Source of the DNA: Silvibacterium sp.
GTDB lineage: Bacteria > Acidobacteriota > Terriglobia > Terriglobales > Acidobacteriaceae
Assembly: GCA_019234945.1 (NCBI GenBank)
Contig: JAFAKX010000149.1
Coordinates: forward strand, 1-41,472
Length of the DNA stretch: 41,472 bases
Reading direction: 5' to 3'
In this document: in pieces, positions 16,270 to 38,066 of the stretch
Position numbering within the stretch: position 1 is the stretch's first letter
Layout: each line of letters opens with the position of its first letter
The notes under the pieces: model-generated
The model's database searches: none
What the model saw: only the letters and a program-made list of their open reading frames with translations
What the model was told of the DNA's origin: nothing
Translations under genes and position numbers: made by a program

Positions 16270-17787
16270 TTAGCTGAGCCCGCCAAGGCACAAATACTTG
16301 GTCTGCAGATATTCGTCCATGCCGTACGGCGAGCCCTCGCGCCCGTAACCTGAGTCTTTCACGCCGCCGAACGGAGCGACTTCCGTGGAGATTGCCGCCT
16401 CATTGATCCCGACCATTCCCGATTCGAGCGCAGCGGAGACCCTCATGACACGAGCGATATCGCGCGAGTAAAAATACGCGGCGAGGCCGAACGGCGTACT
16501 GTTGGCAGCAGAAATGGCTTCTTCTTCGGTGTGAAAGCGAAAAAGCGGCGCGACGGGCCCGAAGGTTTCTTCACAAGAGAGGACCATGCTGGAATCCACG
16601 TCGACAAGAACCGTTGGCTCGTAGAAATACCGCCCGAGGGCGTGCCGCTTCCCGCCAATGAGCACGCGGGCACCGTGTTCGACTGCATCGGCAACATGGC
16701 GTTCGACTTTCACGAGAGCACGCGCATTGATAAGCGGCCCGATCTCAGCGTCACCTCCAGCCGGACCGACGCGCAGGTTTGCCACAGCCTGCACAGCGCG
16801 CTCCGCAAATTCGTCATAGATTGCGTCGGCGATGTAGATGCGGTTGGCACAGATACAGGTCTGGCCTGCGTTGCGAAACTTGGCGGCGATCATGCCTTTA
16901 ATAGCCCGATCGAGGTCGGCGTCTTCAAAGACTATGAAGGGCGCGTTTCCTCCGAGTTCGAGGGAGAGGCGTTTCAGCGTTGATGCCGAGGCCTGAGCGA
17001 GGTGCTTGCCAACAGCTGTCGATCCGGTAAAGGACAACTTGCGAACGCGCTCGTCATTGAGCCATACGTCAGCCACCGCTCCGGCATTCTTACGCGAAGC
17101 AGGGACGACATTGACCACACCTTCGGGAATGCCCGCTTCAGCCGCAAGCAACGCCAGAGCGAGCGCCGAGAGAGGAGTGTCCTCGGCGGGCTTGGCCACG
17201 ATCGTGCAACCGGCGGCGAGCGCAGGCGCAATCTTGCGGGCGAGCATGGCAATGGGAAAATTCCAGGGAGTGATGGCGGCCGCCACGCCAACTGGCTCCC
17301 TGGTGACGATGATTTTGCGCCCCGGAGCAGTTTCGGGAATGATATCGCCGTAGGCGCGTTTGGCTTCTTCCGCAAACCACTCGATGTAAGCGGCCCCGTA
17401 AGCCACCTCGGCGCGGCTCTCGGTCAGGGGCTTGCCCTGCTCGATAGAGATTAAGCGGGCCAAGTCCTCCTGATTCTTTTTGACCTGCGTGAGCCACGAC
17501 TGCAAGTGCGCGGCACGCTCCTTGGCGAGAATCTTGCGCCAGGAAGCAAAGGCGCGATGCGCCGCATCTGCAGCGGCCTTGGCTTCGGCAGATCCGCAGT
17601 CGGCGACTTCAGCAATCAGCGAACCATCGGCTGGATTCTCTACGGGGAAGGTGCGGGCGTCGCTCGACTGAACACGCTTGTTCGCAATCCATGCACGAGT
17701 AACGATCAGGTCGGACCGATCGAGCTGCAGCACCTGTTTCTCTGCTGCGGACGTGGAGTGATTCTGTATTTCAGCTGGGGCTGCCAT
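16270..17787 (-). CDS. gabD: succinate-semialdehyde dehydrogenase
   Basis: This aldehyde dehydrogenase of 505 residues oxidises succinic semialdehyde to succinate with NAD(P)+, the exit of GABA catabolism into the TCA cycle. The ALDH core is complete: ITPWNFPIAMLARKIAPALAAG, FTGSTAVGKHLA, the catalytic glutamate in LELGGNAPFIVFEDADLD, and the catalytic cysteine in NAGQTCICANRIYI. Then come EETFGPVAPLF and the C-terminal GVKDSGYGREGSPYGMDEYLQ, which resembles GabD more than betaine-aldehyde enzymes. ATG 17787 has GGGAG seven bases upstream. It lies next to the shared regulatory element at 17848-17877 and fits the adjacent gabT as the following step. Confidence 0.9.
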   Translation of the reverse strand: MAAPAEIQNHSTSAAEKQVLQLDRSDLIVTRAWIANKRVQSSDARTFPVENPADGSLIAEVADCGSAEAKAAADAAHRAFASWRKILAKERAAHLQSWLTQVKKNQEDLARLISIEQGKPLTESRAEVAYGAAYIEWFAEEAKRAYGDIIPETAPGRKIIVTREPVGVAAAITPWNFPIAMLARKIAPALAAGCTIVAKPAEDTPLSALALALLAAEAGIPEGVVNVVPASRKNAGAVADVWLNDERVRKLSFTGSTAVGKHLAQASASTLKRLSLELGGNAPFIVFEDADLDRAIKGMIAAKFRNAGQTCICANRIYIADAIYDEFAERAVQAVANLRVGPAGGDAEIGPLINARALVKVERHVADAVEHGARVLIGGKRHALGRYFYEPTVLVDVDSSMVLSCEETFGPVAPLFRFHTEEEAISAANSTPFGLAAYFYSRDIARVMRVSAALESGMVGINEAAISTEVAPFGGVKDSGYGREGSPYGMDEYLQTKYLCLGGLS

Positions 17788-17847
17788 AGCGCGACTCCCA
17801 ATCTCCGCGGAGGAACCTACCAGAAGAATTTGGATGCCAAGTTTTCC

Positions 17848-17877
17848 TTGACAGTCATCAAAATTTCACTAATCTTG
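17848..17877 (+). promoter_or_regulatory. shared promoter/operator element, copy A
   Basis: On the plus strand TTGACA (17848-17853) and TAATCT (17870-17875) are 16 nt apart. The 19-mer CAAAATTTCACTAATCTTG (17859-17877), an imperfect inverted repeat, covers the spacer and the -10. The same arrangement recurs at 30697-30666 on the minus strand. The element lies 230 nt before the Oar-type receptor gene and 72 nt before the divergent gabD, so it could control both. Promoter strength and the binding protein are inferred. Confidence 0.6.
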
Positions 17878-18104
17878 CTGAATATATGTAAGGTTTTTCG
17901 AGCATTTTCGGAATACTTGCGTGTCTGATTTGCATGGTACACCGTCACGCTACACTCGCGTTGACGCAACGATAGCCGCCTCCGGGACAGCATTTTCAAG
18001 ATGCTGTAGCTCGCCGCGATCCATCAGCTTTGCAGGGATGCAGTCCATCCGAGTTCACTTCGTACAGAACGTTGGCTTGATCCTCCGCTCATGAGGTGTA
18101 GAGA

Positions 18105-21100
18105 ATGCTGTCTATCGCAGGTCGGTGTCGCCCCGTCCCCTTTACGCTTTCCTCACTGCTAATTCTTGTGCTCTTCACGCCTCTCTATGCGCAATCGACG
18201 GGCGGCCGGGTTCTTGGCCGGGTGCTCGATCCCAGCGGAGCCCTCGTGCCGGGCGTAACACTGACGCTCACCAACTCCGAATCGGGCATCGTGCAGAAGG
18301 CTGATTCCAGCAAGGGCGGCGACTATATTTTCCTGACTGTGCCGGTGGGAACATACCGGCTGCAGGCGGAAATGTCAGGGTTCAAATCGTTTATTGCGGA
18401 TGGAATCAACGTACAGCTGAATGCGACGGTGACGTACGATGTGCATCTTGTAGTCGGGACAAGCGCGCAGTCGGTCGAGGTGACGGCTGCTCCGCCGATC
18501 GTCGACACTACTACCACGCAGCTTGGAGCCGTCGTCAATTCGCGAGCGGTCGAGAATCTTCCGCTGAACGAGCGCAATACCTACCAACTGTTGCAGCTTC
18601 AGCCCGGTGTGACCGGCGTGAGCGGCTCAGATCTCTTCTATGGAAGCGACCAGGCGGGCGCGGTTTCGGTCAACGGTGGACGCGGCCGTTCGAACAATTT
18701 CAGCGTGAACGGGGGCGACGCGAACGATCTCTTTGTAAATTCACCGGGTATTGAGCCGTCTCCCGACGCGATCGACGAGTTCAAGGTCATCACCAATACT
18801 TTCGATGCTGAGTACGGACGCAATTCCGGCGCGGTGATCAACGTCGTCACGAAGAGCGGCACGAACGATCTTCACGGCAGCATTTACACCTATGTCCGCA
18901 ACCAGGCAATGGACTCGAAGGGCTATTTCGACCTTACGACCCCCGACGATAACCAGCTGCAGTTCGGCGCTACTATCGGCGGCCCGATACGCAAGGACAA
19001 GACTTTTTTCTTCGTTTCGTATGAGGGGCGGCAACTTCGGAAGGGCATCAGTTCGGACCGGGTTCGTGTGCCGACTCAAAACGAGCGCAATGGAGTTTTT
19101 GATGATACTGCGCCGTTTTCTGGAAACCTGACGGACGCAACGGTTGCCTCCATTATTCAAAACCGGCCCGGTTGCGCGCAGGCCATTACCACAGCGGGGG
19201 GGACAGTCCCCGATCCTGCTTCAGTCGCACAGGGTAATGCTCTGCCCTGGAGCCAGGTGTTCCCGGGCAATGTGATTCCCACAAGCTGCTTCGATCCGGT
19301 CGCAGCAAATATCGTCAACAACTACGTTCCAATGCCCAATGTGGCGGGTAATCAGTTTCAGGGCGCACCCAACCAGCATGTACGTGAGAACCAGGGGACG
19401 GTGCGCATCGATCACACATTCAGCCCTAAGAACTCGCTCAGCGCCTTCTACTACGTTGATGACGGCTGGGATGCGAGCCCGTTCACGCGGTTCCAGGCTG
19501 AAATTCCGAACCTGCTGCCGGGGTTCGGCAGTGATAACGCCACGCGGAACCAGCAAATCAACATTGCCGAAACGTGGACCATCACCCCAACGATGCTGAA
19601 TGAGGCGCGCGCCACATATTACCGTGAAGGCCAGCGGACCTTCCTGCACCCTCAGCACACAAATCTGGTGACCTCTTCGTGCTCCGGAGCGGCTGCGGCG
19701 TTTTGCTTCAATGGAAACACCGACACCCCTCTTTACTCCTACGACAATCTGGGAAATGCGACTCCTATTCCGAATAACGCGAAGCTTGGAATCACACCAG
19801 GCCTGACGGCGGAGCACGAGGGGGTTCCTTATGTCAGCATTAGTGGCGGATTCACGGTCGGCAATGACTATGAAGGAGAACTGCCGCAGGTAGGCAACAC
19901 ATACGCGTTCATGGATAACCTCTCGAAGACTGTCGGACGCCATTCGATGAAGTTCGGCGTCGACGTACGCAACCAGCGATTCGATCAGACGCTCTATTAC
20001 AACCTCAACGGCTTCTACACCTATACAGGAGGCAGCGAAAACGACCTGGGCGCCTCGAATCTTTTCGGCAATTACTTCCTGGGCCTGCCGGACCTCTATT
20101 CTCAGGGCTCACCGCAAACGGAGAATATCCGCGCCTGGGCTGTCTATCTGTTCGCGCAGGACAGCTTCAAGATCAAGCCATCTCTGACTATGAACTATGG
20201 GCTGCGCTGGGAGCTGAACCAGCCTCTAGCGGATGTCTCGCACCGGGTTCAGACATTTCGACCGGGGCAGGCCGATACTGTCTTTCCGTGCCAGCTCTCA
20301 GCGGATAGCCAGGCTTCACTGGGCACAAACACGGCAGACTGCGGTCCGGGAAGTGCGAACCAGGCAGTCTTTCCGCTCGGATTGGTTGTACCCGGCGACA
20401 AGGGGATTCCGGCCGGATTGACCGCGACCTACTACAAGGCATTCGCGCCGCGGGTCGGCATAGCGTGGAGCCCCGAAAAATGGCAGGGCAAGCTGGTCAT
20501 CCGCTCCGGTTTCGGAATCTTTTATAACCCGATGGAGCAGCTTGTGATGGAGCAGTTCCAGGGCGAGCCTCCCTTCGGCGGAAGCAACAGCCTCTCGGTG
20601 CCATTGTTCCAGACCCCCTTCGTAAGCCAGACGGGCACAGTCGCGCCGAATGCCTTTGGCGGCTTTATAACTCCGAAGCCCGGCGAGGCGGTCGACTGGT
20701 CGAGGTTCCGTCCCATCCTGATGTTCGGGGAACTCGAGCCCAATCTAAGGACGCAGTACACCACGCAATACAATTTCCAGGTCCAGCAACAACTCGCTCC
20801 GAACCTGGTGATGACGCTGGGGTATGTCGGCTCGCAGGGTCATCGGCTTCTCGCGACGTACGACCTGAACCATGGCAATCCGCAGACATGCCTCGATCTG
20901 GCGGCGACATCCGCCTACAACAACGATGCTAGCTACAACTGTGGACCTTTCGGGGAAGACTCGGCATATATGATCCCCGGCGGAGAAACGATCGCTCCCC
21001 AGGGCCTTCATCTGCCCTACGGATCGACGACGTTCATCCCGGGCGGCACCGTATTACAGAGCCCCATCACACTCGTCGGCATCAGAAAGTATTCCTCGCC

Positions 21101-21944
21101 GTACTGCGATCCTATCTCCGGCACGGATTGTCCGCCGGATGGAGTGCCGGTGTTCTCCAACATCTTTGCGCAGAATGTGGTCGCGAGCTCGGCGTACAAC
21201 TCACTTCAGGCGTCGCTGGAGAAGCGTTTCTCCCAAGGCCTGCAGTTTCTGGCTTCCTACACATGGAGCAAGTCGATGGACAGCGCGTCCAGCTTCGAGC
21301 AGAGCCTTAATCCGCTCGACCTCCGTAGCAATTACGCTCTCTCGCTCTTCGACGCGCGAAACCGGTTCGTCTTCAGCGGGGTGTGGGACCTGCCGGTCCG
21401 CAAGTACTCCGGCACACGCGGCGTGTTGCTCGATGGCTGGCAGGCCTCGGGAATCCTCACTATCCAGACGGGATTCCCGATACGCATGGGCTCGAATCTC
21501 GACCAGGAACTACAGGGCAGCGCAGACTTTGAAAGTCCCGGACGGCCCGATCAGATCAGGCCATTCAGGCATCGCAACCCGCGCACACCCCTGAACGGAG
21601 CAACTGGATACTACTTCGACCCGTCGATCTTTGCAGTCCCAGCTCTCGGGTCGGGCGGTAATGCTCCACGGAGCATCTGCTGCGGTCCGCCAATCGACAA
21701 CACGGACCTCGCGGTGCAGAAGCTGACGCCTGTTGGAGACCGGGGCACGCTCCAGTTCGTCTTCCAGGTCTTCAATGTCTTCAACCACACACAGTTTCTG
21801 AATCCCGACGGCCAGTTGGGCGATGCCCAGTTCGATTACAGCAGCAATCCGAATGGAACGCCCGTAGCAGGCGGCTTGTTTGGCGAAATCACGCGCGCAC
21901 GCGAGCCCCGGCAGATTCAGCTGGCAATTCGCTTCAGAATGTGA
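18105..21944 (+). CDS. Oar-type TonB-dependent receptor with carboxypeptidase-regulatory domain
   Basis: This outer-membrane protein of 1279 residues has a signal peptide ending near residue 30 (LFTPLYAQ). A carboxypeptidase-regulatory-like beta-sandwich follows at about residues 33-120 (GRVLGRVLDPSGALVPGVTLTL, GTYRLQAEMSGFKSF). Then comes a plug-like region with NERNTYQLLQLQPGV, INVVTKSGTNDLHGSIYTYVRN and RKDKTFFFVSYEGRQ. The long barrel contains repeated Tyr/Asn/Asp-rich strands, YNFQVQQQLAPNLVMTLGYVGSQG, and ends IQLAIRFRM with the usual hydrophobic C-terminus. Such Oar/SusC-like receptors are abundant in Acidobacteria and usually import unknown ligands by TonB energy. Location beside gabD and the shared element makes a polyamine- or peptide-related ligand possible, but this is inference. 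GAGG precedes ATG 18105 by eight bases. Confidence 0.9.
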   Translation: MLSIAGRCRPVPFTLSSLLILVLFTPLYAQSTGGRVLGRVLDPSGALVPGVTLTLTNSESGIVQKADSSKGGDYIFLTVPVGTYRLQAEMSGFKSFIADGINVQLNATVTYDVHLVVGTSAQSVEVTAAPPIVDTTTTQLGAVVNSRAVENLPLNERNTYQLLQLQPGVTGVSGSDLFYGSDQAGAVSVNGGRGRSNNFSVNGGDANDLFVNSPGIEPSPDAIDEFKVITNTFDAEYGRNSGAVINVVTKSGTNDLHGSIYTYVRNQAMDSKGYFDLTTPDDNQLQFGATIGGPIRKDKTFFFVSYEGRQLRKGISSDRVRVPTQNERNGVFDDTAPFSGNLTDATVASIIQNRPGCAQAITTAGGTVPDPASVAQGNALPWSQVFPGNVIPTSCFDPVAANIVNNYVPMPNVAGNQFQGAPNQHVRENQGTVRIDHTFSPKNSLSAFYYVDDGWDASPFTRFQAEIPNLLPGFGSDNATRNQQINIAETWTITPTMLNEARATYYREGQRTFLHPQHTNLVTSSCSGAAAAFCFNGNTDTPLYSYDNLGNATPIPNNAKLGITPGLTAEHEGVPYVSISGGFTVGNDYEGELPQVGNTYAFMDNLSKTVGRHSMKFGVDVRNQRFDQTLYYNLNGFYTYTGGSENDLGASNLFGNYFLGLPDLYSQGSPQTENIRAWAVYLFAQDSFKIKPSLTMNYGLRWELNQPLADVSHRVQTFRPGQADTVFPCQLSADSQASLGTNTADCGPGSANQAVFPLGLVVPGDKGIPAGLTATYYKAFAPRVGIAWSPEKWQGKLVIRSGFGIFYNPMEQLVMEQFQGEPPFGGSNSLSVPLFQTPFVSQTGTVAPNAFGGFITPKPGEAVDWSRFRPILMFGELEPNLRTQYTTQYNFQVQQQLAPNLVMTLGYVGSQGHRLLATYDLNHGNPQTCLDLAATSAYNNDASYNCGPFGEDSAYMIPGGETIAPQGLHLPYGSTTFIPGGTVLQSPITLVGIRKYSSPYCDPISGTDCPPDGVPVFSNIFAQNVVASSAYNSLQASLEKRFSQGLQFLASYTWSKSMDSASSFEQSLNPLDLRSNYALSLFDARNRFVFSGVWDLPVRKYSGTRGVLLDGWQASGILTIQTGFPIRMGSNLDQELQGSADFESPGRPDQIRPFRHRNPRTPLNGATGYYFDPSIFAVPALGSGGNAPRSICCGPPIDNTDLAVQKLTPVGDRGTLQFVFQVFNVFNHTQFLNPDGQLGDAQFDYSSNPNGTPVAGGLFGEITRAREPRQIQLAIRFRM

Positions 21945-21978
21945 GGCTCTGATCGGGCCGAGTGCCAACTGCTCCGCC

Positions 21979-22830
21979 TCAAAACGTCGGTGGAGTATTG
22001 ACCCAGAGCAGCACTGCCTGTTGCTTGTAGGGATTGCTCCAGCGGTGTGTCTGCGAGCTCGAGAAATAGAGGCTGTCGCCAGGGCGAAGCCGGTAGTACT
22101 CCACCTCATCGAGCCACACGTCACAGCTGCCGCTGATGACAAAGATAAACTCCTCGCCTTCGTGATGATACGAGCCGCCGCTCGATGTTCCCGGGGCAAG
22201 GCGGAACAGATGCGGCTCCATTGCGGTGGAACCGTGTGCCAGCAACTCGAGATGCACGCCGGGTTCATTTGAAAGTTCGATGCGCTGGTTTGGCCGCACC
22301 AGCTTGCCGTTCTGGTCCGCTCCACCAAAAAATGACAGCACATTGGTGTCGTAGAAGACAGCCAGCCGCTGTAGCGCGGCAATCGAAGCGTGTGCCTGCC
22401 CGCGCTCAAGGCAGCTTAGAAAACTTACCGACAGATCCGTACCCTTCGCAGCCTCCGATAGAGTCATCGAACGCTCGCGGCGAAGCTGGCGAAGGCGCTT
22501 TCCAATGGGCAGGCTGCCGCCTCCGTTCGTCGCAGCTGAAACCCCGTTCGACAGTGAACGATGGGTCTTTCTGCCAGCCATCCAATGACGGATAGCGTCC
22601 ACGTTGAGATTCTTTTCTAATCTGAGATGCTGGATCGACTTCAGCCGCTCGACTTCTTCGAGGAAGTAGGTGCGATACCCGCTCTTCGTCCGGCGCGGAT
22701 GCGTGAGTCCGGCATTCTCCCACTGGCGGAGCGTGGATGAGCTGACGCCAAGCATCTCCGACACTTCGGAGATGCGGAAAGCCAGATGATTCCCGAGCGA
22801 CGATTTCCTGGATTTTGTGTTTTTGGGCAT
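21979..22830 (-). CDS. MerR-XRE-cupin three-domain transcriptional regulator
   Basis: From ATG 22830 the protein has 283 residues and three recognisable domains. Residues about 17-85 form a MerR-type winged helix (FRISEVSEMLGVSSSTLRQW, GYRTYFLEEVERL). Residues about 108-165 form an XRE/Cro-type helix-turn-helix (LRQLRRERSMTLSEAAKGTD, FLSCLERGQAHASIAALQRL). Residues about 207-280 form a cupin ligand-sensing barrel with YHHEGEEFIFVISGS and RPGDSLYFSSSQTHRW. XRE-cupin proteins include PuuR, the putrescine-pathway repressor, which fits this locus; the additional MerR domain is unusual. The frame stays open to 23187 but that stretch lies inside the divergent mmsA gene, so 22830 is preferred; no clear ribosome-binding site is visible. 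It most likely controls mmsA and possibly the whole polyamine cluster. Confidence 0.87.
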   Translation of the reverse strand: MPKNTKSRKSSLGNHLAFRISEVSEMLGVSSSTLRQWENAGLTHPRRTKSGYRTYFLEEVERLKSIQHLRLEKNLNVDAIRHWMAGRKTHRSLSNGVSAATNGGGSLPIGKRLRQLRRERSMTLSEAAKGTDLSVSFLSCLERGQAHASIAALQRLAVFYDTNVLSFFGGADQNGKLVRPNQRIELSNEPGVHLELLAHGSTAMEPHLFRLAPGTSSGGSYHHEGEEFIFVISGSCDVWLDEVEYYRLRPGDSLYFSSSQTHRWSNPYKQQAVLLWVNTPPTF

Positions 22831-22861
22831 CAGGGGCAAGGTCAGGCTACAGTGATTCAAA

Positions 22862-22872
22862 ACTATCTTAGT
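22862..22872. promoter_or_regulatory. weak inverted repeat between regulator and mmsA
   Basis: ACTATCTTAGT is an inverted repeat with 4-bp arms, within CAAAACTATCTTAGTAG (22858-22874). It partly resembles the shared element at 17859 and 30666 (about 9 of 19 positions). Its place in the divergent regulator/mmsA intergenic region makes it a possible operator, but similarity is low. Confidence 0.25.
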
Positions 22873-22969
22873 AGCAGCCAATGATGTGGAGAGCAATGAG
22901 TTGATCAGGGTTACATGATTTCTGTAGGCTTTTCTTTGTTGAATTAACCTTTCATTCAGGAGACTCGCC

Positions 22970-24460
22970 ATGAGTACAGCCGTTGCCAGCTCAGTACAGT
23001 TGCCGCACTTCATCAATGGAGAGTGGGTAGAGTCCACCGCGAGCGAGTGGCTGGACGTGCCGAATCCCGCAACCGGCGAAGTGCTGGGGCGGGTACCGAT
23101 GGCTGGCACCGATGAGGTGAATCGTGCGGTTGAGTCTGCCGCTGCAGCTTTTCCTTCATGGCGCAGGACGCCTCCCGAGGACCGCATTCAGCCGCTCTTC
23201 AGAATGAAAGCGCTGCTCGAAGAGCACATCGACGACCTGAGCCGCACCATCACCCTGGAAAACGGCAAGACGTTTGCCGAAGCCAAAGCCGAAATGCGGC
23301 GGACCATCGAAAATGTCGAGGTGGCCTGCGGGATCCCGATGATGATGCAGGGTCACAACCTCGAAGACGTGGCTCGCGGCATCGACGAAACAATGATTCG
23401 CCAGCCCCTGGGAGTGGTCGCGGTCATCACGCCGTCAAATTTCCCCGGAATGACTCCGTTCTGGTTTCTGCCTTATGCCATTGCGACCGGTAACACTGTG
23501 GTTCTGAAGCCGTCGGAGCGGGTGCCCCTGACGATGCAGCGCGTTCTGCCGCTGTTTGAAAAAGCCGGCCTGCCGAAAGGCGTGCTGAATCTTCTGAATG
23601 GCGGGCGTGTAGCGGCGGAAACGCTCATTGATCATCCGAAGGTGCGTGCAGTCAGCTTCGTTGGATCGACGCCTGCTGCACGAGCCGTCTATGCCCGCGC
23701 TGGGGCGAGCGGCAAGCGTGCGCAATGCCAGGGTGGCGCGAAGAACCACGTTATCGTGCTGCCTGATGCAGACATGGAGATGGCTACCCAGATCATCAGC
23801 GACAGTGCCTTTGGATGCGCGGGGCAGCGGTGTCTTGCGGTGTCGGTCGCTGTCACGGTGGGCGAAGCGCAGCGCAGCTTCCGTGATGCCATCGCCGCGT
23901 CTGCTTGCAAACTGAAGGTAGGCTACGGTCTTGACGAAGGCGTTCAGATGGGCCCTGTGATCACGAAGCAGAGCAAGTCGCGCGTCGAGTCATTGATTGG
24001 CCGAGGAAAGGATCAGGGGGCAAAGGTCCTGCTCGATGGCCGGGGAGCAAAAGTTTCAGGCTACGAACAGGGCAGCTTTGTGAAGCCTACGATCCTCGAT
24101 GCAGTGCCCGCGACCAGCGAGCTCACCGACACGGAAATTTTCGGCCCGGTACTCAGCCTTGTTCATGCGAACGATCTCGACGAGGCGCTGGCGTTTCTGG
24201 AGCGCAGTCCTTACGGCAACCAGGCATCCCTGTTTACGTCCAGCGGCGCGGCTGCACGGCGTTTTCGATACGAAGCCCCGGCGGGCAATATCGGCATCAA
24301 TATTGGAGTGGCCGCACCGATGGCGTACTTCCCATTCAGCGGCTGGAAGGACAGCTTCTTCGGTATCATGCACGCACAGGGGCACGATTCCGTTGAGTTC
24401 TTCACGGAGAAGAAGGTCGTCGTGGAGCGTTGGGCCAAGGAGCACTCGCGCAAATTCTGA
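22970..24460 (+). CDS. mmsA: CoA-acylating (methyl)malonate-semialdehyde dehydrogenase
   Basis: This 496-residue member of the MmsA/IolA aldehyde-dehydrogenase branch converts methylmalonate or malonate semialdehyde, NAD+ and CoA to propionyl- or acetyl-CoA, CO2 and NADH. Signs are [11 protein letters not shown] at the start, [34 protein letters not shown] and the catalytic cysteine in [11 protein letters not shown]. The usual ALDH LELGGK, whose glutamate activates hydrolysis, is replaced by CQGGAKNH, as expected for CoA-dependent members. The C-terminus has [25 protein letters not shown] (split by me into GWKDSFFG and [12 protein letters not shown]). ATG 22970 has AGGAG seven bases upstream. 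In this locus malonate semialdehyde from beta-alanine is the likely substrate. Confidence 0.9.
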
Positions 24461-24476
24461 GCGGCGAAAGCTAACT

Positions 24477-24490
24477 CGTCGCAGGCGACG
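24477..24490. terminator. hairpin between convergent mmsA and gabT
   Basis: CGTCGC-AG-GCGACG is a perfect 6-bp inverted repeat in the 37-nt gap between two convergent stops. The position suits a bidirectional terminator, but the two-base loop is tight and no T-run follows on either side, so this is tentative. Confidence 0.35.
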
Positions 24491-24497
24491 CAAGCAG

Positions 24498-25856: not shown

Positions 25857-25861
25857 GGCGT

Positions 25862-30202: not shown

Positions 30203-30261
30203 ACGATTTTCCTTTGCCCCACGTCGGGGCGGTCAAAGATTCACGCGGCAGAAGCGGCGGC

Positions 30262-30290
30262 GTCATAAATCGAACCAGATTGCTCGTCAA
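30262..30290 (-). promoter_or_regulatory. sigma70-like promoter for the aminotransferase-gabT operon
   Basis: Read on the minus strand, TTGACG (30290-30285) and TATGAC (30267-30262) are separated by exactly 17 nt. They match the consensus at five and four of six bases. The start would be about 50 nt before ATG 30202. It is a second promoter candidate in addition to the shared element at 30697-30669. Confidence 0.5.
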
Positions 30291-30664
30291 AACGGATCGC
30301 TCATCCCCTGCAAGTCTTACGTCAGGGTCGGCAGGCACAGAAGCGACTCACTGCGGGCATAACGCGCAAACCAGCGTTGGCGGCAAAACGTGCCCGCGAT
30401 GCGAAACCGGCGGAAAAGTATCTGCGGAAAGATGCGATCCGGGCTCTTGAGATAACCAGCCTCTCGGCGAAAGGGACGAAGACGCGAAGGCGGGGTGATG
30501 CCGCGCGCAAATCGACAGTCGCCGGAATTCGATTCAGAAGCCATTGCCGCCCCTTCTTTTGAGCCGTTCTCGCCTGTTCAGGGAATCGGAGTTCCGCTGA
30601 CTTGCGGCCTCGTTTCAGTTTGTCAGGAAAGACGTTGCCACGCGGACAACCTTGTAGTAATTTT
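30291..30664. other. divergent intergenic region, no gene recognised
   Basis: These bases lie between the promoter-like elements of the two arms. Several short open frames exist on both strands but none has a convincing ribosome-binding site or familiar sequence. A further plus-strand promoter candidate is TTGCCA (30635-30640), 17 nt, TAATTT (30658-30663), with a poor -10, which would serve the transport arm. No known riboswitch class was recognised. If the minus-strand promoter at 30697 is used, this becomes a long leader of the aminotransferase operon. Confidence 0.45.
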
Positions 30665-30697
30665 GCAAAAATTAGTAAATTTTGCTTCTCGTGTCAA
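30665..30697 (-). promoter_or_regulatory. shared promoter/operator element, copy B
   Basis: The minus strand reads TTGACA (30697-30692), 17 nt, TAATTT (30674-30669). The spacer and -10 are covered by CAAAATTTACTAATTTTTG (30684-30666). In either orientation 30665-30685 is a 21-bp palindrome with nine of ten arm positions paired, and TTTTGCAAAA (30661-30670) adds a second, overlapping palindrome. The same compound element is at 17848-17877. It stands 97 nt before the PotD-like start and 464 nt before the aminotransferase start, so it may govern both arms. Confidence 0.62.
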
Positions 30698-30739
30698 GCC
30701 AGACAGACTCCAGTTTAGTCTTCTCTGACACATCCTTAC

Positions 30740-30759
30740 GAGGCCACTCAAGCGGCCTC
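30740..30759 (+). promoter_or_regulatory. hairpin in the leader of the transport operon
   Basis: GAGGCC (30740-30745) and GGCCTC (30754-30759) pair over an 8-nt loop, about 10 nt before the ribosome-binding site of the PotD-like gene. No T-run follows, so it is not a terminator. It may affect message stability or ribosome access. Confidence 0.35.
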
Positions 30760-30780
30760 TGCGATTCCGAGGGACGGCAC

Positions 30781-31875
30781 TTGTTCAGTCTGCGAAGGAA
30801 TGCCCTGCGAACCACTCCCGGGAGGCTCTTCCTTCTCTTGGTTTTCGCGTCGCTCTGTTTTCTTTCAAGCTGCGGCAAGCCGGCGCCCACCCTGAGCCTG
30901 CTGGTCTGGGAAGGCTATGTCGATCCTTCATTCATTCAGGGCTTCGAGGCGACATGCCACTGCAAGGTAGTCGCCGCTTATATGGGATCGAGCGATGAAC
31001 TCGTTGCCAAGCTGCGCGGCGGCGCGTCCTCAAATTACGACGTGATTTCACCATCGAGCGATGTCGCGACGAGCCTCTCGCGCTCGGGACTGGTCGCGCC
31101 GCTCGATCTGTCGAAGATTCCGAACTACGCCCAGGTCTCGCCGAAGCTCACCAGCATGGCACTGGTAAAGAATGACGGAAAAGTTTTCGGTGTTCCGCTG
31201 ACGTGGGGGCCCAATCCCCTGCTCTACGACAAGACGGCGTTTGCAAACCCGCCTGCAGCGTGGGCTCAACTCTGGGACCCAAAATACAAAGATAAGCTCT
31301 CTCTCTGGGACGATCTCTCGTCTGTCTACATGGCTGCGCAGGTTTTGGGTTTCGGCAAGCAGGATCCGACTGCAATCTACAACCTCAGCGACGAGCAGCT
31401 GGAGCAGGTGAGGGCGAAGCTGATTGCACTCAAACCAAATATTCGCAAGCTGTGGAGCACGGGGGGCGAGCTCACCAACCTCTTTCAGAATCACGAAGTG
31501 ATCGCCGCGATGGGATGGCCGCTGATTACAAACCAGGTGCGCAAGGCCGGCCTGCCGATCGAAGAGGAAATTCCGGCGGAGGGCACAACCGGCTGGATCG
31601 ACCATCTGATGATCACCTCGTCTAGCGACAACAAGGATCTCGCTTACTCGCTGCTGAACTACATGATCTCCGCGCAGACGCAAAAGCGGCTCAGCGATGT
31701 GACCGGATACATCCCGGCGAATCCGCAGGCCGCCGCGCTCATGACACCCGACCAGCGGCGCGGACTGCACCTGGATGATATCGACAATTACCAGAAGCAG
31801 ATCGTCTTTTGGCAGGACGTGCCCCGCCGCGCGAAGTATACCGAGATATGGAACGAAGTGAAGGCCAGCCAATGA
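30781..31875 (+). CDS. polyamine ABC transporter substrate-binding lipoprotein (PotD-like)
   Basis: From TTG 30781, which has GAGGG seven bases upstream, the protein has 364 residues. The frame stays open to 30682, but that longer start lies inside the operator palindrome. A lipoprotein signal (basic start, LFLLLVFASLC, lipobox FLSSC with Cys31) tethers it to the membrane. The mature part resembles the PotD/PotF family: LSLLVWEGYVDPSFIQGFEA, YDVISPSSDVATSL, GVPLTWGPNPLLYDKTAF, WAQLWDPKYKDKLSLWDD and GTTGWIDHLMI. It would deliver spermidine, putrescine or a product to the adjacent PotABC-type importer. Confidence 0.88.
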   Translation: MFSLRRNALRTTPGRLFLLLVFASLCFLSSCGKPAPTLSLLVWEGYVDPSFIQGFEATCHCKVVAAYMGSSDELVAKLRGGASSNYDVISPSSDVATSLSRSGLVAPLDLSKIPNYAQVSPKLTSMALVKNDGKVFGVPLTWGPNPLLYDKTAFANPPAAWAQLWDPKYKDKLSLWDDLSSVYMAAQVLGFGKQDPTAIYNLSDEQLEQVRAKLIALKPNIRKLWSTGGELTNLFQNHEVIAAMGWPLITNQVRKAGLPIEEEIPAEGTTGWIDHLMITSSSDNKDLAYSLLNYMISAQTQKRLSDVTGYIPANPQAAALMTPDQRRGLHLDDIDNYQKQIVFWQDVPRRAKYTEIWNEVKASQ

Positions 31876-31903
31876 GCGGTCATTTCCAAAGGCGGGAGGT
31901 CGA

Positions 31904-32998
31904 TTGAACGGCAGTCCCGCGTCCCTTGAAAATACCGCCGCTCCACCGACGGTTGAATCCGCTTTCCTGCGGATCGAACACGTAGGCAAAAGCTTTGGGG
32001 CACAGCGCGTACTTGAGTCGATCTCGCTCGATATCGAGCGCGGTGAATTTCTTACCTTGCTTGGCGAGAGTGGCTCCGGAAAAACCACGCTGCTGCGAAT
32101 TATCGCCGGATTCGAGCAGGTTTCCGCGGGCCAGGTTTTTCTTGAAGGTCAACGGCTCGATAATCTGCCGCCGCACCGTCGCCCTGTGCACACCGTCTTT
32201 CAGAGCTATGCACTCTTTCCGCACATGAACGTGTTCGACAACGTGGCCTATGGGCTGCGTGTTCGCGGCGTCAGCGCGGCCGAGACGAAATCACGCGTGC
32301 ATGCTGCCCTCGCGAAGGTCCGGATGGAAGCCTTTCTGGCGCACTATCCTCGACAGATCAGCGGAGGCCAGAAGCAGCGCGTCGCGCTGGCTCGCGCGCT
32401 GGTCAACCAGCCAAAGGTACTGTTGCTCGATGAACCGCTCTCGGCACTCGACGCAAACCTGCGTGTCGAAATGCAGCGCGAACTCAAGCTGCTGCAACAG
32501 GACCTGGGCATCACGTTCCTCTTTGTGACACACGACCAGAGCGAGGCATTGGCCATCTCCGATCGCGTTGTGCTGCTCCATCGGGGACGCATCGAGCAAT
32601 GCGGATCGCCGCGCGAGATTTACGCTCGGCCACGCACGGCTTACGCCGCGAATTTCCTTGGCAAGAGTAATCTCGTCAGGGGTGTGGTGAGGCGCGGCAT
32701 CGCCGAGTGTGGAGTCTTTTCGATTCCGGTACAGCTTCCGGACGGACCAGTCGTATTCTCATTGCGGCCAGAGGCGATTGCTCCAGCTTCCTCGCTTAGC
32801 GACGATAGCGTCGTCCGTTTTACCGCTCGAGTCATCGCCGGGCAGTTTCACGGCGCAAACACGCTTCTCACCTTGCACTGTTCCGGGGAAATCGAACTGA
32901 CGGCGCGCGTTGCCCTTCCGATCGGCCTGGCTGAAACCCTTGAATTCGCATTCCGCGCAGAAGAATGCGTTCCACTCGAAGGTGGGGAGCAGGACTAA
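31904..32998 (+). CDS. potA: polyamine ABC transporter ATP-binding protein
   Basis: The 364-residue ATPase has Walker A GESGSGKTT at residues 54-62, the Q-loop in TVFQSYALFPHM, signature ISGGQKQRVALARAL, Walker B VLLLDEPLSALD and the switch histidine in FVTHDQSEA. It ends in a TOBE-type domain (FLGKSNLVRGVV, FSLRPEAI) as in PotA and other MalK-branch importers. It powers uptake through the two membrane subunits. Translation starts at TTG 31904 with GGAGG only four bases before it; no ATG fits the frame better. It lies 28 nt after the binding protein and two bases before the next gene. Confidence 0.92.
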   Translation: MNGSPASLENTAAPPTVESAFLRIEHVGKSFGAQRVLESISLDIERGEFLTLLGESGSGKTTLLRIIAGFEQVSAGQVFLEGQRLDNLPPHRRPVHTVFQSYALFPHMNVFDNVAYGLRVRGVSAAETKSRVHAALAKVRMEAFLAHYPRQISGGQKQRVALARALVNQPKVLLLDEPLSALDANLRVEMQRELKLLQQDLGITFLFVTHDQSEALAISDRVVLLHRGRIEQCGSPREIYARPRTAYAANFLGKSNLVRGVVRRGIAECGVFSIPVQLPDGPVVFSLRPEAIAPASSLSDDSVVRFTARVIAGQFHGANTLLTLHCSGEIELTARVALPIGLAETLEFAFRAEECVPLEGGEQD

Positions 32999-33000
32999 CC

Positions 33001-33852
33001 ATGCAACCTGCGCGCCGCAATGCGTTGCTCGCAACACTCCCACCCTTCGTCTGGATCGCACTCTTTCTTTTTCTGCCATACTGCCTGCTCTTCTGCTACA
33101 GCTTCTGGAGCCTCAGCGAATTTCAACAGATTCTGCACCACCCGGCGCTGGCCAACTATGCGCATCTGTTCTCCAATCCGCTCTATCTCACGGTAATCCT
33201 GCGCTCGCTTCGCATCGCGTTCTCAGTTGTAGGGCTCTCGCTCCTGATCGGCTATCCGCTGGCCTTCTTCCTTGTCTTTCATGCCGGGCGCCGTCGCTAC
33301 TTGCTCTATCAGGCAGTCATTATTCCGCTTTGGGTCAGCTACCTGGTGCGGGCATATGCATGGAAGGTCATCTTCGGCAACGAAGGAGTATTCAATACAC
33401 TTCTGCTGTGGTCCCACGCAGCGTCGCATCCGCTCAGCTTCCTGCTGTACAGCCCTTTTGCCGTAATTGTTACCCTCACCCACATCTACGTGCCCTTTGT
33501 TGTGCTGCCGGTTGTTGCTTCGCTCGAAAAGATTCCGCGCGAGCTGATCGAATCGTCGAGTGACCTTGGGGCTCGGCCCGGGCAGACCTTTCTGCGCGTG
33601 ATTCTTCCCCTTTCGCTGCCCGGAGTCATCTCGGGAGCCACGTTCGCTCTGCTGCTCAGCTTCGGAGATTTCCTCGCGCCGCTGCTGCTCGGCGGCCCAA
33701 GCAGCGTGATGATCGCGAATATCGTCGCTAATCTTTTCGGAGCCGACTACAACTGGCCCCTCGGAGCGGCCGTTGCCGTTGTGATCATGGTCATGGTTGT
33801 GGTCATCCTGACCGTCACACAAAGGCTGGAAAAGCGCTGGAGAACAGCATGA
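33001..33852 (+). CDS. potB: polyamine ABC transporter permease (PotB-like)
   Basis: The 283-residue inner-membrane permease has six predicted helices. Its cytoplasmic EAA-type loop reads ELIESSSDLGARPGQTFLRV followed by ILPLSLPGVISG, which contacts the ATPase. ATG 33001 is preferred: AGGA lies six bases upstream, right after the potA stop. An in-frame ATG at 32965 would overlap potA and gives an unlikely N-terminus. LGGPSSVMIANIVANLFG near the end matches PotB-type subunits. Its stop overlaps the next start (ATGA). Confidence 0.92.
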   Translation: MQPARRNALLATLPPFVWIALFLFLPYCLLFCYSFWSLSEFQQILHHPALANYAHLFSNPLYLTVILRSLRIAFSVVGLSLLIGYPLAFFLVFHAGRRRYLLYQAVIIPLWVSYLVRAYAWKVIFGNEGVFNTLLLWSHAASHPLSFLLYSPFAVIVTLTHIYVPFVVLPVVASLEKIPRELIESSSDLGARPGQTFLRVILPLSLPGVISGATFALLLSFGDFLAPLLLGGPSSVMIANIVANLFGADYNWPLGAAVAVVIMVMVVVILTVTQRLEKRWRTA

Positions 33853-34670
33853 ATCCAGTCCGCAGGCCTACAATGCTCATCGGACTTGCTGCCTTCTCCT
33901 ATGCGTTCCTGTACTTCCCTATCGTCATCCTGGTTCTCTACTCATTCAATCGCGACGGAGTCGGTGGATTTCCTCCGCGCCACCTGACGTTCGAGTGGTA
34001 TCGCGCGCTTTTCGCTGATGCATCTATGTGGAGCGCAATCGGGAACAGCGTCATCGTTGCATTGGCCGCAGTCGTCATCTCTATACTGATCGGATTTCCC
34101 GCTGCTTACGCCCTCGATCGGTATAGCTTCCCCGGCAAAGCCGCATTCCGGCGGTTTATTTTGCTACCACTCATTGTGCCTGGAGTGATTACCGGCATTT
34201 CTCTGCTTCTGCTTGTTGTAAGCGCTGGAATTCACCTGAGTCTCGTTACAGTCGCGTTGGGGCATGCAACCGCGCTTACCGCGGTCGCCACTACGGAGAT
34301 CTTTGCTGGGTTTTCCAGGCTCGACCGATCCTACGAGGAAGCTTCCGCTGATCTTGGCGCAAGCGGATTACAGACCCTGCGCCGCATTATCCTGCCCCTG
34401 ATGCGCACTTCCCTGCTTGGTACGGCGCTTCTTGTCTTTACGCTCTCCATGGATGAAATCGCCGTCACGTTTTTCCTGATTGGCCGTGAGAACACGCTGC
34501 CGCTCGAAATATGGTCGCGGCTGCGGCGCGGCGCAACTCCGGAGATGAATGCCATTTCCACGCTGATATTTGTATTTTCGGTCGTAACCATATTCATTTC
34601 ACAACGGCTGATTACGGATCGCGAGACGGACCTTAGTCCCACTCCAGAGATCTCAGGAGCAGCGCAATGA
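33849..34670 (+). CDS. potC: polyamine ABC transporter permease (PotC-like)
   Basis: The second membrane subunit, 273 residues, begins with an uncleaved helix (FSYAFLYFPIVILVLYSFN). It has the EAA-type loop SYEEASADLGASGLQTLRRI followed by ILPLMRT. The segment FTLSMDEIAVTFFLIGRENT is characteristic of PotC/PotI proteins. GGAG lies six bases before ATG 33849, which overlaps the potB stop. Its own stop overlaps the amine-oxidase start, so transport and oxidation genes are translationally coupled. Confidence 0.93.
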   Translation: MNPVRRPTMLIGLAAFSYAFLYFPIVILVLYSFNRDGVGGFPPRHLTFEWYRALFADASMWSAIGNSVIVALAAVVISILIGFPAAYALDRYSFPGKAAFRRFILLPLIVPGVITGISLLLLVVSAGIHLSLVTVALGHATALTAVATTEIFAGFSRLDRSYEEASADLGASGLQTLRRIILPLMRTSLLGTALLVFTLSMDEIAVTFFLIGRENTLPLEIWSRLRRGATPEMNAISTLIFVFSVVTIFISQRLITDRETDLSPTPEISGAAQ

Positions 34671-36073
34671 ACACCAGCGCGCTGAGCAAGTACGCTGGAC
34701 CCGCTCCAATCACACGGCGACTCTTTCTTGCCAATGCAGCTCTGGCCGCGTTTGGACTACCCCTTTACGCGCAGGTCAAAGCGGCGAAGCCCACCCACTC
34801 GTGCATCGTTGTCGGGGCCGGGTTCGCCGGGCTGGCCGCGGCATACCGCCTCACAGCTGCCGGATGGAACGTCACAGTGCTTGAGGCGCGGAATCGCACT
34901 GGCGGCCGCGCCTGGTCGTACCGCTTTCCGCAGGCTCCGGAGTTGGTCTGCGAGATGGGCGGCGAGTGGATCGGCAAGGATCATCCACGTATCTTGGCGC
35001 TCGCAGAGGAGCTTAACGTACCGCTTGAGCCTCACGCATACCGTGTTTGGCTGCTGCAGCACGAGGAATTGCATGCGCCGGGAAGCTGGAATTTCTCCGC
35101 CGAATCGCAAGCCGCATGGAAGCGATTCATGGACAAGTACAAGAGTTCCACCGAACAGGAGAGGCGCCGCCTCGACGACTACGACTGGTGGACTTGGCTC
35201 GGAAAGATTGGCATCACTGACGGCGACCGCCGCATTCGCGAAATCATGGATTCGACCGACTACGGCGAGTCCATCCGGCAGGTCTCGGCCTACGTCGCCG
35301 CAGATGAATACGTCGACACCGACTACATCAACCCTAACAGCACTGACGAAATGGACTTTCACGTACGCGGCGGCAACAGCGTGCTTATCGATGCGATTGC
35401 GGCGCGCCTCGCGCCAGGCGCGTTGCACCTGAATTCGCCAGTGAAGTCAATTACGGAGCGCGCCGGTCGCGTGACCGTCGCAACAGCAAATGAAAGGTTC
35501 ACCTCCGACTCCTGCATCTTCACTGCTCCAGCTTCGGTGCTCAACTCGATCCAGTTCGATCCGCCGCTTTCATCCGCAAAGGCCCTCGCTGCCGATGAGC
35601 TCGAGTATGGACGCATCATTAAGTCGCAGATGCTGTTCGACCGCCGATTCTGGCCGGCGGAAGATTTCTCGCTAATGAGCGACGAAACCTCGCAGCAGTA
35701 TTTTCACAGTACACAAGGACAGCCGGGACCGCGCGGCATTCTTTGCTCTTATGCGATTGGAGACAAAGCCGACGTACTTTCTTCGCAATCCAAACCGGAT
35801 CGCCAGGCGCAGTTGATGCGCGATCTCAAGGCAGTATGCCCCGACGCTGCTGCGGCGCTTATCGACACCTTCGATCAGCCCTGGCAGTACGACCCGCTGG
35901 CGCATGGCGCTTACGCGATCTACCGCCCTGGGCAGTGGTTCCGCATCCGCCCGCTGCTCGAGCAGCCTCACGGCAAGGTGCTCTTTGCGGGCGAGCACCT
36001 CGGTGAATGGCAGGGCTTTATGGAAGGTGCGGTCAGCACAGGCGAAATCGCCGCCCAGCATCTTCTGCGTTGA
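34667..36073 (+). CDS. Tat-exported flavin monoamine/polyamine oxidase
   Basis: This 468-residue FAD enzyme starts with a twin-arginine-like signal: R17-R18 in ITRRLFLANAALAAFGLPLYAQ (quoted part: ITRRLFLANAALAAF). The dinucleotide fold has GAGFAG at 50-55, E73 in VLEARNRTGGRAWSY, and the C-terminal FAD motif VLFAGEHLGEWQGFMEGAV. This is the monoamine/polyamine oxidase (MAO/putrescine oxidase) architecture, oxidising a primary or secondary amine to aldehyde, ammonia and reduced flavin. Export would place it in the periplasm. Overlap with potC (ATGA, AGGAG seven bases upstream) ties it to polyamine uptake. Substrate preference is inferred from context; L-amino-acid oxidase activity cannot be excluded. 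Confidence 0.85.
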   Translation: MNTSALSKYAGPAPITRRLFLANAALAAFGLPLYAQVKAAKPTHSCIVVGAGFAGLAAAYRLTAAGWNVTVLEARNRTGGRAWSYRFPQAPELVCEMGGEWIGKDHPRILALAEELNVPLEPHAYRVWLLQHEELHAPGSWNFSAESQAAWKRFMDKYKSSTEQERRRLDDYDWWTWLGKIGITDGDRRIREIMDSTDYGESIRQVSAYVAADEYVDTDYINPNSTDEMDFHVRGGNSVLIDAIAARLAPGALHLNSPVKSITERAGRVTVATANERFTSDSCIFTAPASVLNSIQFDPPLSSAKALAADELEYGRIIKSQMLFDRRFWPAEDFSLMSDETSQQYFHSTQGQPGPRGILCSYAIGDKADVLSSQSKPDRQAQLMRDLKAVCPDAAAALIDTFDQPWQYDPLAHGAYAIYRPGQWFRIRPLLEQPHGKVLFAGEHLGEWQGFMEGAVSTGEIAAQHLLR

Positions 36074-36089
36074 GCTATAGATAGGATCA

Positions 36090-38066
36090 ATGGCCTTTAC
36101 CGACAAAGAACTCGGCATGGATCGCAAGATCACCCGGCGCGATTTCATGAATGGCGCGGCCATGGCGATCGGCGCTGCTGCCGTATCGCGACCAGCGGTG
36201 CTCTTTGCACAAGAAGCCTCTGCACCGATTCAGGAGGCGCAAAATAAGCCGGGATACGATCCGCCCGCGCTCCATGGCATGCGCGGCAGTCACGAAGGAG
36301 CGTATGAAATTGCGCACAGCCTGCGCGACGGCAACTTCTGGCGAAATGCCGGTCAGCCGATCGACACTGAGGAAACCTACGATCTTGTTGTCGTTGGAGG
36401 CGGCATCAGCGGGCTCTCGTCTGCCCGGTTCTTTCATGAGGCGGCAGGCAGACAGGCGCGTGTATTAATTCTTGAGAATCACGATGACTTCGGCGGTCAC
36501 GCGAAACGCAACGAATTCGAGGTTGACGGCGCTTTCCTCCTTGGCTATGGAGGGACCTATGCGATCGAGAGCCCCGCTCCGTACAGCCCCGTCGCCAAAC
36601 AAGTGATCCGCGAACTGGGTATTGATGTTGCTTCCTACAGCTCGCATAACAACGCTGCGCTTTATGGCTCGCTGGGGCTCAAACAGAAAATATTCTTCGA
36701 CCGCGAGACCTTCGGCGCGGACGGTCTTGTCACGAGCCCCTATTCACGGTGGGGTGCGGCCGAGCCCGATCCTTCCAGTCAGAAATGGAATGAGTTCGCC
36801 ACGCAGGCTCCATTGTCCGCAAAGGCAGTAGCGGATGTGAAGCGCCTCTACACACTGAAGGAAGATCTGTACCCGGCTCTCACTTCCGACCAGAAGAAAG
36901 CAAAGCTGGCCCACATGAGCTACGCGAATTACCTGCTGAGGGACGTTAACGTCGATCCACAGGTGGTTGCTTTGCTTCAAGCGCATCCGCAGCCGCTCTA
37001 CGGCCTTGGCATCGATGCGGTCTCCGCGCAGGACGCCTGGGGGCTCGGACTGCCGGGCTTCGACGGTCTCAAGCTGTCTCCCGAACCAGGCCCCGGCATG
37101 GGCCGCGATGCGATCCGCAACGAGGAGGCGGAAGCTTACTTCTTTCACTTCCCCGACGGAAACTCGTCCATCGCGCGCCTGCTCGTCCGCTCTCTCATCC
37201 CGGATGCCGTTCCTGGCAGCTCTGCTTCAGATGTTGTCACAGCTGACATTCACTACGACCAGCTCGATCGGCCCGGCAATGCCACGCGCATCCGGCTCGA
37301 CAGCACGGTAGTTCGCGTTCGCCACATCCCCGATGTCGCGAATGCAAAGGAAGTTGAGGTCGCGTACGTGGAGCAAGGCAGACTCTTTACACTCAAGGCA
37401 TCGTACTGCATCCTCGCCTGCTGGCACGCAATGATTCCGTACCTTAGCAAGGAACTGCCGCCCGAACAAAGGCAGGCTCTCCATTCCGCCGAGAAAGTTC
37501 CCATCGTCTACACAAATGTGGCCCTTAGGAACTGGCAGAGTTTCCAGAAGCTTGAGACATCCAGCATCTACTCACCCGGATGCTACTTCAGCGAAACCAG
37601 TCTCGATCACCGTGTCAGCATCGGCAGCTACCACTGCACCACGAAACCGGCACTGCCTATCGTGCTCACCATGCACCGTTATCCCTGCTCACCCGGACTG
37701 TCCAGCCGCGAGCAGCATCGCGCGGGCCGGCAGGAACTCTATGAGACACCCTTCGAAACCTTCGAGCGCAACATCCGCGAGCAATTGGCGCGCAGCGTGG
37801 GCTCGGGTGGCTTCGATCCCGCGCGCGACATCGCGGCAATCACGGTCAACCGCTGGCCGCACGGCTACGCGTACCAGTACAACTCGTTGTGGGATCCGTT
37901 CTGGCTCGAAGGCGGTCCGCTGCCCTGCGTCGCTGCGCGCCAGCCGTTCGGTCGGGTGGCAATTGCCAATGCCGATGCCGACGCCTACGCCTACTCCGAC
38001 TGTGCCATCAACCAGGCCAACCGCGCAGTCAGCGACCTGAATGTGGGGAAGTTATCTAAGACCTAG
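36090..38066 (+). CDS. spdH: spermidine dehydrogenase-like Tat-exported flavoprotein
   Basis: The 658-residue protein has a classic twin-arginine signal, R16-R17 in KITRRDFMNGAAMAIGAAA. It is followed by YDPPALHGMRGSHEGAYEIA, closely resembling what I recall of Pseudomonas SpdH. An FAD-binding fold has VVVGGGISGLSSARFF (residues 99-114), an acidic LENHDDFGGHAKRNEF and a long substrate domain ending VNRWPHGYAYQYN and FGRVAIANADADAYAY. SpdH-type enzymes cleave spermidine to 1,3-diaminopropane and 4-aminobutanal in the periplasm, passing electrons to an acceptor through flavin and haem. It follows the amine oxidase by 16 nt (AGGA near ATG 36090) and is the last gene of the arm. The haem ligands were not identified. 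Confidence 0.85.
   Translation: MAFTDKELGMDRKITRRDFMNGAAMAIGAAAVSRPAVLFAQEASAPIQEAQNKPGYDPPALHGMRGSHEGAYEIAHSLRDGNFWRNAGQPIDTEETYDLVVVGGGISGLSSARFFHEAAGRQARVLILENHDDFGGHAKRNEFEVDGAFLLGYGGTYAIESPAPYSPVAKQVIRELGIDVASYSSHNNAALYGSLGLKQKIFFDRETFGADGLVTSPYSRWGAAEPDPSSQKWNEFATQAPLSAKAVADVKRLYTLKEDLYPALTSDQKKAKLAHMSYANYLLRDVNVDPQVVALLQAHPQPLYGLGIDAVSAQDAWGLGLPGFDGLKLSPEPGPGMGRDAIRNEEAEAYFFHFPDGNSSIARLLVRSLIPDAVPGSSASDVVTADIHYDQLDRPGNATRIRLDSTVVRVRHIPDVANAKEVEVAYVEQGRLFTLKASYCILACWHAMIPYLSKELPPEQRQALHSAEKVPIVYTNVALRNWQSFQKLETSSIYSPGCYFSETSLDHRVSIGSYHCTTKPALPIVLTMHRYPCSPGLSSREQHRAGRQELYETPFETFERNIREQLARSVGSGGFDPARDIAAITVNRWPHGYAYQYNSLWDPFWLEGGPLPCVAARQPFGRVAIANADADAYAYSDCAINQANRAVSDLNVGKLSKT

Follow-up and report, generated by a model that had tools for sequence, protein, structure and literature searches.

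The window is a single entire contig of 41,472 nucleotides (JAFAKX010000149.1, assembly GCA_019234945.1, Silvibacterium sp.) belonging to a genome of 3.5 Mb that is 72% complete. Its right-hand part carries a block of genes for putative amine transport, amine oxidation and aldehyde oxidation, which the original prediction had described as a locus for the import and degradation of polyamines that feeds all spermidine carbon into central metabolism. The locus proteins were scored against curated models (NCBIfam/TIGR cut-offs) and Pfam, with solved relatives taken from the PDB, and all the genes listed earlier were found in place. Three further genes were absent from that list, encoding an Oar-like outer-membrane barrel, a MerR-XRE-cupin regulator and a BBP2 porin, and the locus coheres better than could be told at first. 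We consider the region to be a polyamine catabolic regulon with a rough probability of 0.6, all of its chemistry being deduced from sequence. Judged by its class III aminotransferase AT3, the closest named relatives are a Silvibacterium metagenome-assembled genome (MAG; 93%), Silvibacterium bohemicum S15 (89%) and Acidobacteriaceae bacterium ZG23-2 (84%). The features of the locus are as follows.

16270..17787, minus strand: GabD-type succinate-semialdehyde dehydrogenase (TIGR01780).
17868..17894, plus strand: candidate operator/promoter element between gabD and the outer-membrane protein (OMP) gene, with a two-mismatch palindrome variant at 17872-17894.
18105..21944, plus strand: Oar-like OMP with CarboxypepD_reg and OMP_b-brl_4 domains (Pfam), proposed polyamine importer.
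21979..22830, minus strand: MerR-XRE-cupin regulator of 283 amino acids (domain search), its start set at the most likely ATG, 22830.
22970..24460, plus strand: MmsA-family CoA-acylating (methyl)malonate-semialdehyde dehydrogenase (TIGR01722).
24498..25865, minus strand: GabT, 4-aminobutyrate transaminase (TIGR00700).
25862..27334, minus strand: aldehyde dehydrogenase of the betaine/aminoaldehyde type, proposed aminoaldehyde dehydrogenase (curated models, solved relatives).
27356..28801, minus strand: APC-family permease (AA_permease_2).
28832..30202, minus strand: AT3, HemL-like class III aminotransferase, proposed diamine aminotransferase (curated models, solved relatives).
30649..30676, minus strand: candidate operator element before at3, in the at3/potD intergenic region (match to a wider pattern).
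30682..31875, plus strand: PotD-type binding lipoprotein (curated models), true start probably 30781 or 30838.
31904..32998, plus strand: PotA-type ATPase (curated models).
32965..33852, plus strand: PotB-type permease (curated models).
33849..34670, plus strand: PotC-type permease (curated models).
34667..36073, plus strand: flavin amine oxidase of the twin-arginine translocation (Tat) type (domain search, solved relatives), hereafter the 34667 oxidase.
36090..38066, plus strand: SpdH, spermidine dehydrogenase homologue with both heme-b ligands (full-length homology, alignment of the histidines).
38075..39766, minus strand: BBP2 beta-barrel porin (Pfam), possibly a member of the locus, recurring in one of 24 related neighbourhoods (G544).

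The SpdH encoded here is, from its sequence, a convincing relative of the Pseudomonas enzyme. It matches P. aeruginosa SpdH (PaSpdH) over residues 14-650 of 658 with 475.6 bits, while the next other PDB protein reached 19.8 bits. According to PMC12564564, the heme b of PaSpdH is held by H54 and H562; the corresponding positions in the window protein are H76 and H591, and both are histidine in all 31 aligned rows (the window protein and PaSpdH counted). The whole-length match and the two retained histidines thus bear out the earlier call of this flavoenzyme. Its twin-arginine motif, like that of the 34667 oxidase, was read by eye without a signal-peptide predictor.

Recurrence of the locus was followed in 396 genomes of the phylum and 200 genomes of the family. 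The AT3 marker was present in 53 of the 200 family genomes, and for 24 of these the surroundings of the gene were examined at an identity threshold of at least 35%. The APC permease recurred in 22 neighbourhoods. The OMP, the aldehyde dehydrogenase and GabT were each seen in 20, PotD and the regulator each in 19, the other three Pot proteins (PotA, PotB and PotC) each in 18, and MmsA in 16. The same cluster emerged from the 80 best named AT3 loci, a good number of them short: apc in 75, OMP in 69, aldh in 67, gabT in 62, regulator in 55, potD in 49, mmsA in 32, gabD in 13 and spdH in 5 (L195, L206, L239, L258 and L273). Since most of the genes recur jointly in relatives, their grouping is more than chance, and the co-conservation to be looked for in related Acidobacteriota was found for most of the locus, but not for SpdH and the 34667 oxidase, each of which stands behind potC in only 3 of the 24 neighbourhoods. 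The locus as first described is therefore a recurring core plus an addition comprising these two genes, and SpdH, linked in so few clusters, is ruled out as a member of the core. One more linked case lies beyond the 24, a short contig (G511) with an at3 fragment, potDABC and spdH, without a 34667-type oxidase.

Two other genes are frequent in the family clusters. In 11 of the 24, an Amidohydro_3-family gene separates the regulator gene from potD (for example L102:10463-12223 and L105:1219-2952); at a guess, its product might release polyamines from N-acyl conjugates. A different amine oxidase (AOX), with an RR motif seen by eye and only weak matches among solved proteins, stands behind potC in 9 of the 24 (e.g., L101:5622-7166).

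Linked or not, AT3 and SpdH tend to be found in the same genomes. Both were present in 46 of the 200 family genomes, AT3 alone in 7, SpdH alone in 10 and neither in 137 (Fisher p 7e-28). Counted by genus (79 genera), the same four classes numbered 30, 4, 2 and 43 (p 4e-15), the two genes being in the same genus and not always in the same genome. The phylum sample, with thresholds of E 1e-120 for AT3 (15 of 396 genomes) and E 1e-30 for SpdH (33 of 396), gave 7, 8, 26 and 355 (p 6e-5). These p-values are too strong because related genomes are not independent.

The transport proteins resemble polyamine importers without reaching the curated cut-offs for polyamine transporters: PotA scored 366.5 against 482, PotB 193.3 against 348, PotC 183.2 against 326 and PotD 114.7 against 582. 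As their best or near-best model matches were of polyamine types, the system can be said at most to work like a polyamine importer. The protein closest to PotD was one unnamed solute-binding protein, followed by polyamine-binding proteins. The Oar-like protein has an OMP_b-brl_4 barrel scoring 661.6 bits, and no plug domain was reported by Pfam at E 0.001. APC-superfamily transporters, to which the permease at 27356 belongs, are described as abundant in acidobacteria in PMC5900883. An SDF-family dicarboxylate/glutamate symporter at 14235-15671 adjoins gabD and could serve the uptake or export of C4 acids.

These data also bear on a different reading, in which the recurring core would handle some other amine or an omega-amino acid (beta-alanine, GABA (4-aminobutyrate) or N-acylated amines), SpdH and the 34667 oxidase having joined it later in a single lineage. 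The Pot scores below the cut-offs suit it, as does the make-up of the clusters, where SpdH is missing from 21 of the 24 while the amidohydrolase occurs in 11 and the different amine oxidase in 9 of them. It accounts poorly for the co-occurrence of AT3 with an unlinked SpdH and for the rank of polyamine-binding proteins among the relatives of PotD, and overall we regard it as unlikely.

The C4 branch is well supported. GabT passed its cut-off (562.2 against 506.65 bits), and GabD fell 7 bits short of its own (639.1 against 646.35). The aldehyde dehydrogenase was closest to betaine and aminoaldehyde dehydrogenases and reached no equivalog cut-off among the matches listed (NF010000, 519.8 of 615; TIGR03374, 414.4 of 909.3). 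The C3 branch is plausible. MmsA passed its cut-off with 570.1 against 448.5 bits, had methylmalonate-semialdehyde dehydrogenases as its best solved relatives and belongs to the recurring cluster, but a first enzyme acting on 1,3-diaminopropane is not proven, and its assignment would be a guess. Relatives carry a further aminotransferase beside mmsA, absent from the window locus and found in 7 of the 24 neighbourhoods by its own query, and in eight others a weaker gabT-like gene (37-39%) lies beside or near mmsA; the genome of the window has a 43% relative of this aminotransferase on another contig.

AT3 is the class III aminotransferase of the original prediction, its type now corrected to HemL-like. 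Its best solved relatives are glutamate-1-semialdehyde aminomutases, and it passed the subfamily model NF000818 (414.6 against 398) and remained under the HemL equivalog TIGR00713 (393 against 527.3). It can be ruled out as the HemL of the cell, since another gene passed the HemL cut-off in 4 of the 4 genomes searched. A diamine aminotransferase is suggested by its context: AT3 accompanies aldh and apc in the family and also in G026, lies close to aldh in both f19 genomes that were read (G153 and G019) and stands behind potDABC in G110. AT3 genes of 64-65% identity occur in MAGs labelled Gemmatimonadetes, Gemmatimonadaceae and Betaproteobacteria (L258, L262 and L243), through gene transfer or because the labels or the binning are wrong.

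The 34667 oxidase gained no support for its predicted polyamine substrate. Among its solved relatives the nearest were 8p84, a monoamine oxidase from a bacterium (136.7 bits), and 7eme, an oxidoreductase with no named substrate (136.6 bits). Monoamine oxidase A scored 104 bits and putrescine oxidases 92.6-95.8 bits; a role as putrescine oxidase is thus unsupported. Relatives were found in 18 of the 396 phylum genomes (E 1e-50), and outside its own genome the gene was limited in this sample to family f22 (17 genomes), where none of pot, gabT, aldh and spdH was seen in the 8 neighbourhoods scanned.

Around SpdH genes elsewhere in the phylum, the arrangement of the window was not found in 31 neighbourhoods, drawn from some but not all of the genomes with SpdH and scanned with 18 window queries; the regulator query gave no match. 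Family f25 has four genomes (G355, G107, G391 and G213) in which spdH adjoins apc, gabD and gabT, a grouping that fits the conversion of 4-aminobutanal via GABA to succinate; it was not seen in two other f25 neighbourhoods (G191 and G333). Three of the remaining neighbourhoods had a weak relative (24-25%) of the 34667 oxidase. Tandem arrays of three spdH genes occur in G399, G500 and G503 (L180:6712-12668, L181:4445-10842 and L182:7795-14224), and a conserved gene of family F11, gamma-glutamyltransferase-like on visual reading, adjoins spdH in G403, G500 and G503.

The gene set is probably controlled by the MerR-XRE-cupin regulator through a predicted palindromic operator. The protein scored 61.4 with the PuuR model NF007408, below the cut-off of 211, and has an extra MerR domain; a longer open reading frame overlaps mmsA, and its counterpart in G544 has an in-frame stop. 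An initial operator model built on 19 core bases suited the at3/potD regions in the window, in G515 and in G544, and was dropped when it failed on the other regions. A second pattern, CACTAAYCTTGC, was present in 20 of 25 regions, compared with 24 of 880 random stretches, and from it came the palindrome ACCTTGC-N9-GCAAGGT, which has TATAAT in its spacer and lies between the divergent OMP and regulator genes. The exact palindrome occurred once per genome in 19 of the 24 genomes (12 genera), the same 19 that have the OMP/regulator pair, with 0 for the reversed control. When 54 intergenic regions of the named loci were scored (one was skipped), 33 had it exactly, 5 differed at one position and the other 16 at three to five. 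A level of three mismatches was reached by 1.3% of random stretches taken from these loci, and one of four by 12%. Among the nine regions with four or five mismatches, eight retained GATTATAGTAAGGT.

In the window, the 23-base core of the element at 17872-17894 is identical before the OMP gene of G515; the other two-mismatch match, at 6883 with a spacer of 8, is far from the locus. A wider pattern, ACTAA-N2/3-TTGC-N11-AAGGT, matched the window twice (17868-17894 and 30649-30676) and 0 times in 100 shuffles, a result with descriptive value only, since both sites were already known when the pattern was drawn up. It had 6 full matches across the 24 family neighbourhoods (856 kb). The element before at3 is found again in L194 and G544, differs by one change in G515 and is absent from G455 and G494. 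Upstream of spdH, 7 of 27 genes have a related palindrome (no more than one mismatch), and five of these seven genes belong to one genus; among 1200 random stretches the share was 2.6%.

The palindrome might also be only a strong promoter element, or for the site of another regulator, that does not define a polyamine regulon. The TATAAT-like hexamer, the degenerate copies in 16 of the 54 named loci, the late origin of the window pattern and the persistence of the element in G515, where the regulator was not found, speak for this. They are set against the exact or nearly exact copies in most of the named loci, their restriction to one site per genome across 12 genera and the excess of related sites before spdH, so that we think this explanation doubtful, though it is the least improbable of the alternatives to a polyamine regulon.

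In the pathway that the locus would encode, polyamines would enter through the Oar-like barrel or the BBP2 porin, and a Tat-exported SpdH would split spermidine in the periplasm into 4-aminobutanal and 1,3-diaminopropane, passing electrons from flavin adenine dinucleotide (FAD) to heme b as homology predicts. The second Tat-type flavoenzyme might oxidize a further amine. PotDABC and the APC permease would carry polyamines and their products to the cytoplasm, where AT3 may convert diamines to aminoaldehydes and the aldehyde dehydrogenase may yield GABA and beta-alanine. GABA would be taken to succinate by GabT and then GabD, and beta-alanine via malonate semialdehyde to acetyl-CoA by an omega-aminotransferase and MmsA. 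Import, degradation and the C4 branch of the earlier proposal are retained in this scheme, but the flow of all spermidine carbon to central metabolism is upheld just in part on the C3 side.

XRE-cupin regulators such as PuuR govern polyamine levels in E. coli. This fact, and the ability of SpdH and amine oxidases to reduce polyamine levels, could speak for a locus that protects against polyamines or balances them rather than feeding on them. GabT and MmsA, both over their cut-offs, provide routes to succinate and acetyl-CoA, however, and the uptake genes point to feeding, which makes a protective or balancing role very unlikely.

Several observations weigh against a polyamine catabolic regulon, in addition to the position of SpdH outside most of the clusters. 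The assignment of AT3 to diamines, drawn from gene context, is the weakest step, no substrate is assignable from sequence to the 34667 oxidase, and a periplasmic SpdH would require the uptake of aminobutanal and diaminopropane. No beta-alanine aminotransferase adjoins mmsA at the window locus; mmsA of G515 lies on a separate contig (77%), and G455 yields only a 43% relative. The regulator was not found at E 1e-20 in G515 and G455, both carriers of the version with SpdH, which leaves its pairing with the element putative, and the element itself is missing from G455 and G494. G494 retains at3 without the remaining cluster and without SpdH. In this genome (Acidobacteriaceae bacterium ZG23-2; L139 and L140) at3 adjoins dctA-type and DUF4440 genes, which resembles the left flank of the window.

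The enzymatic steps are of known kinds. Besides the full-length homology, the likeness to P. aeruginosa SpdH (PDB 7d9f-7d9j) includes the FAD region and both heme-b histidines; the window spdH differs in its linkage to a pot operon and to another oxidase gene, and is known here from its sequence. The bauABCD genes of P. aeruginosa form a beta-alanine route from polyamines. The locus resembles this route in its MmsA-type malonate-semialdehyde dehydrogenase and its APC-type permease, and its relatives do so too in having an omega-aminotransferase next to mmsA. Unlike the bau genes, the window locus lacks a BauA-like gene and adds the HemL-like aminotransferase, SpdH, PotDABC and the outer-membrane protein. 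The Puu pathway of E. coli and PuuR resemble the locus in the XRE-cupin part of the regulator and in ending with GabT and GabD, whereas PuuA, PuuB and PuuD were not among the best matches listed and the window regulator has the added MerR domain. Bacterial polyamine pathways described in PMC8437039 comprise, like the window locus, spdH, gabT, gabD and mmsA steps with Pot-type uptake, but the two SAR11 strains treated there are without spdH homologues. SpdH-like oxidases in acidobacteria had been noted before, in PMC7576179. No published description of the recurring cluster, its outer-membrane partner, the regulator architecture or the palindrome was found in the literature search, as far as the text of the sources was accessible; these four, the palindrome in its once-per-genome form, are what is new here. 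The gene content, the recurrence of the cluster, the co-occurrence with SpdH, the retained heme ligands and the common promoter element are directly observed.

A more far-reaching proposal is tentative, and we would rather doubt than accept it as a whole: a hitherto undescribed kind of polyamine catabolic island in Acidobacteriota, with its own Oar/TonB-type importer, periplasmic oxidation ahead of uptake, a new HemL-fold class of diamine aminotransferases and a double-HTH (MerR and XRE) cupin regulator acting on a once-per-genome 23-bp palindrome. If an Oar-like polyamine importer and AT3 as diamine aminotransferase were true, functions would be gained for large, mostly unassigned families. 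Soils are rich in acidobacteria, and little is known of how these bacteria use organic nitrogen; a probable polyamine regulon whose marker AT3 occurs in 53 of the 200 family genomes, together with Silvibacterium bohemicum S15 as a cultured carrier, makes the question testable, and the palindrome opens a direct test of the regulator. Outside the locus, the left part of the contig (2723-9681 and 11297-13186) carries cell-wall-like genes (murF, murE, ftsI and rsmH by eye) and dxs.

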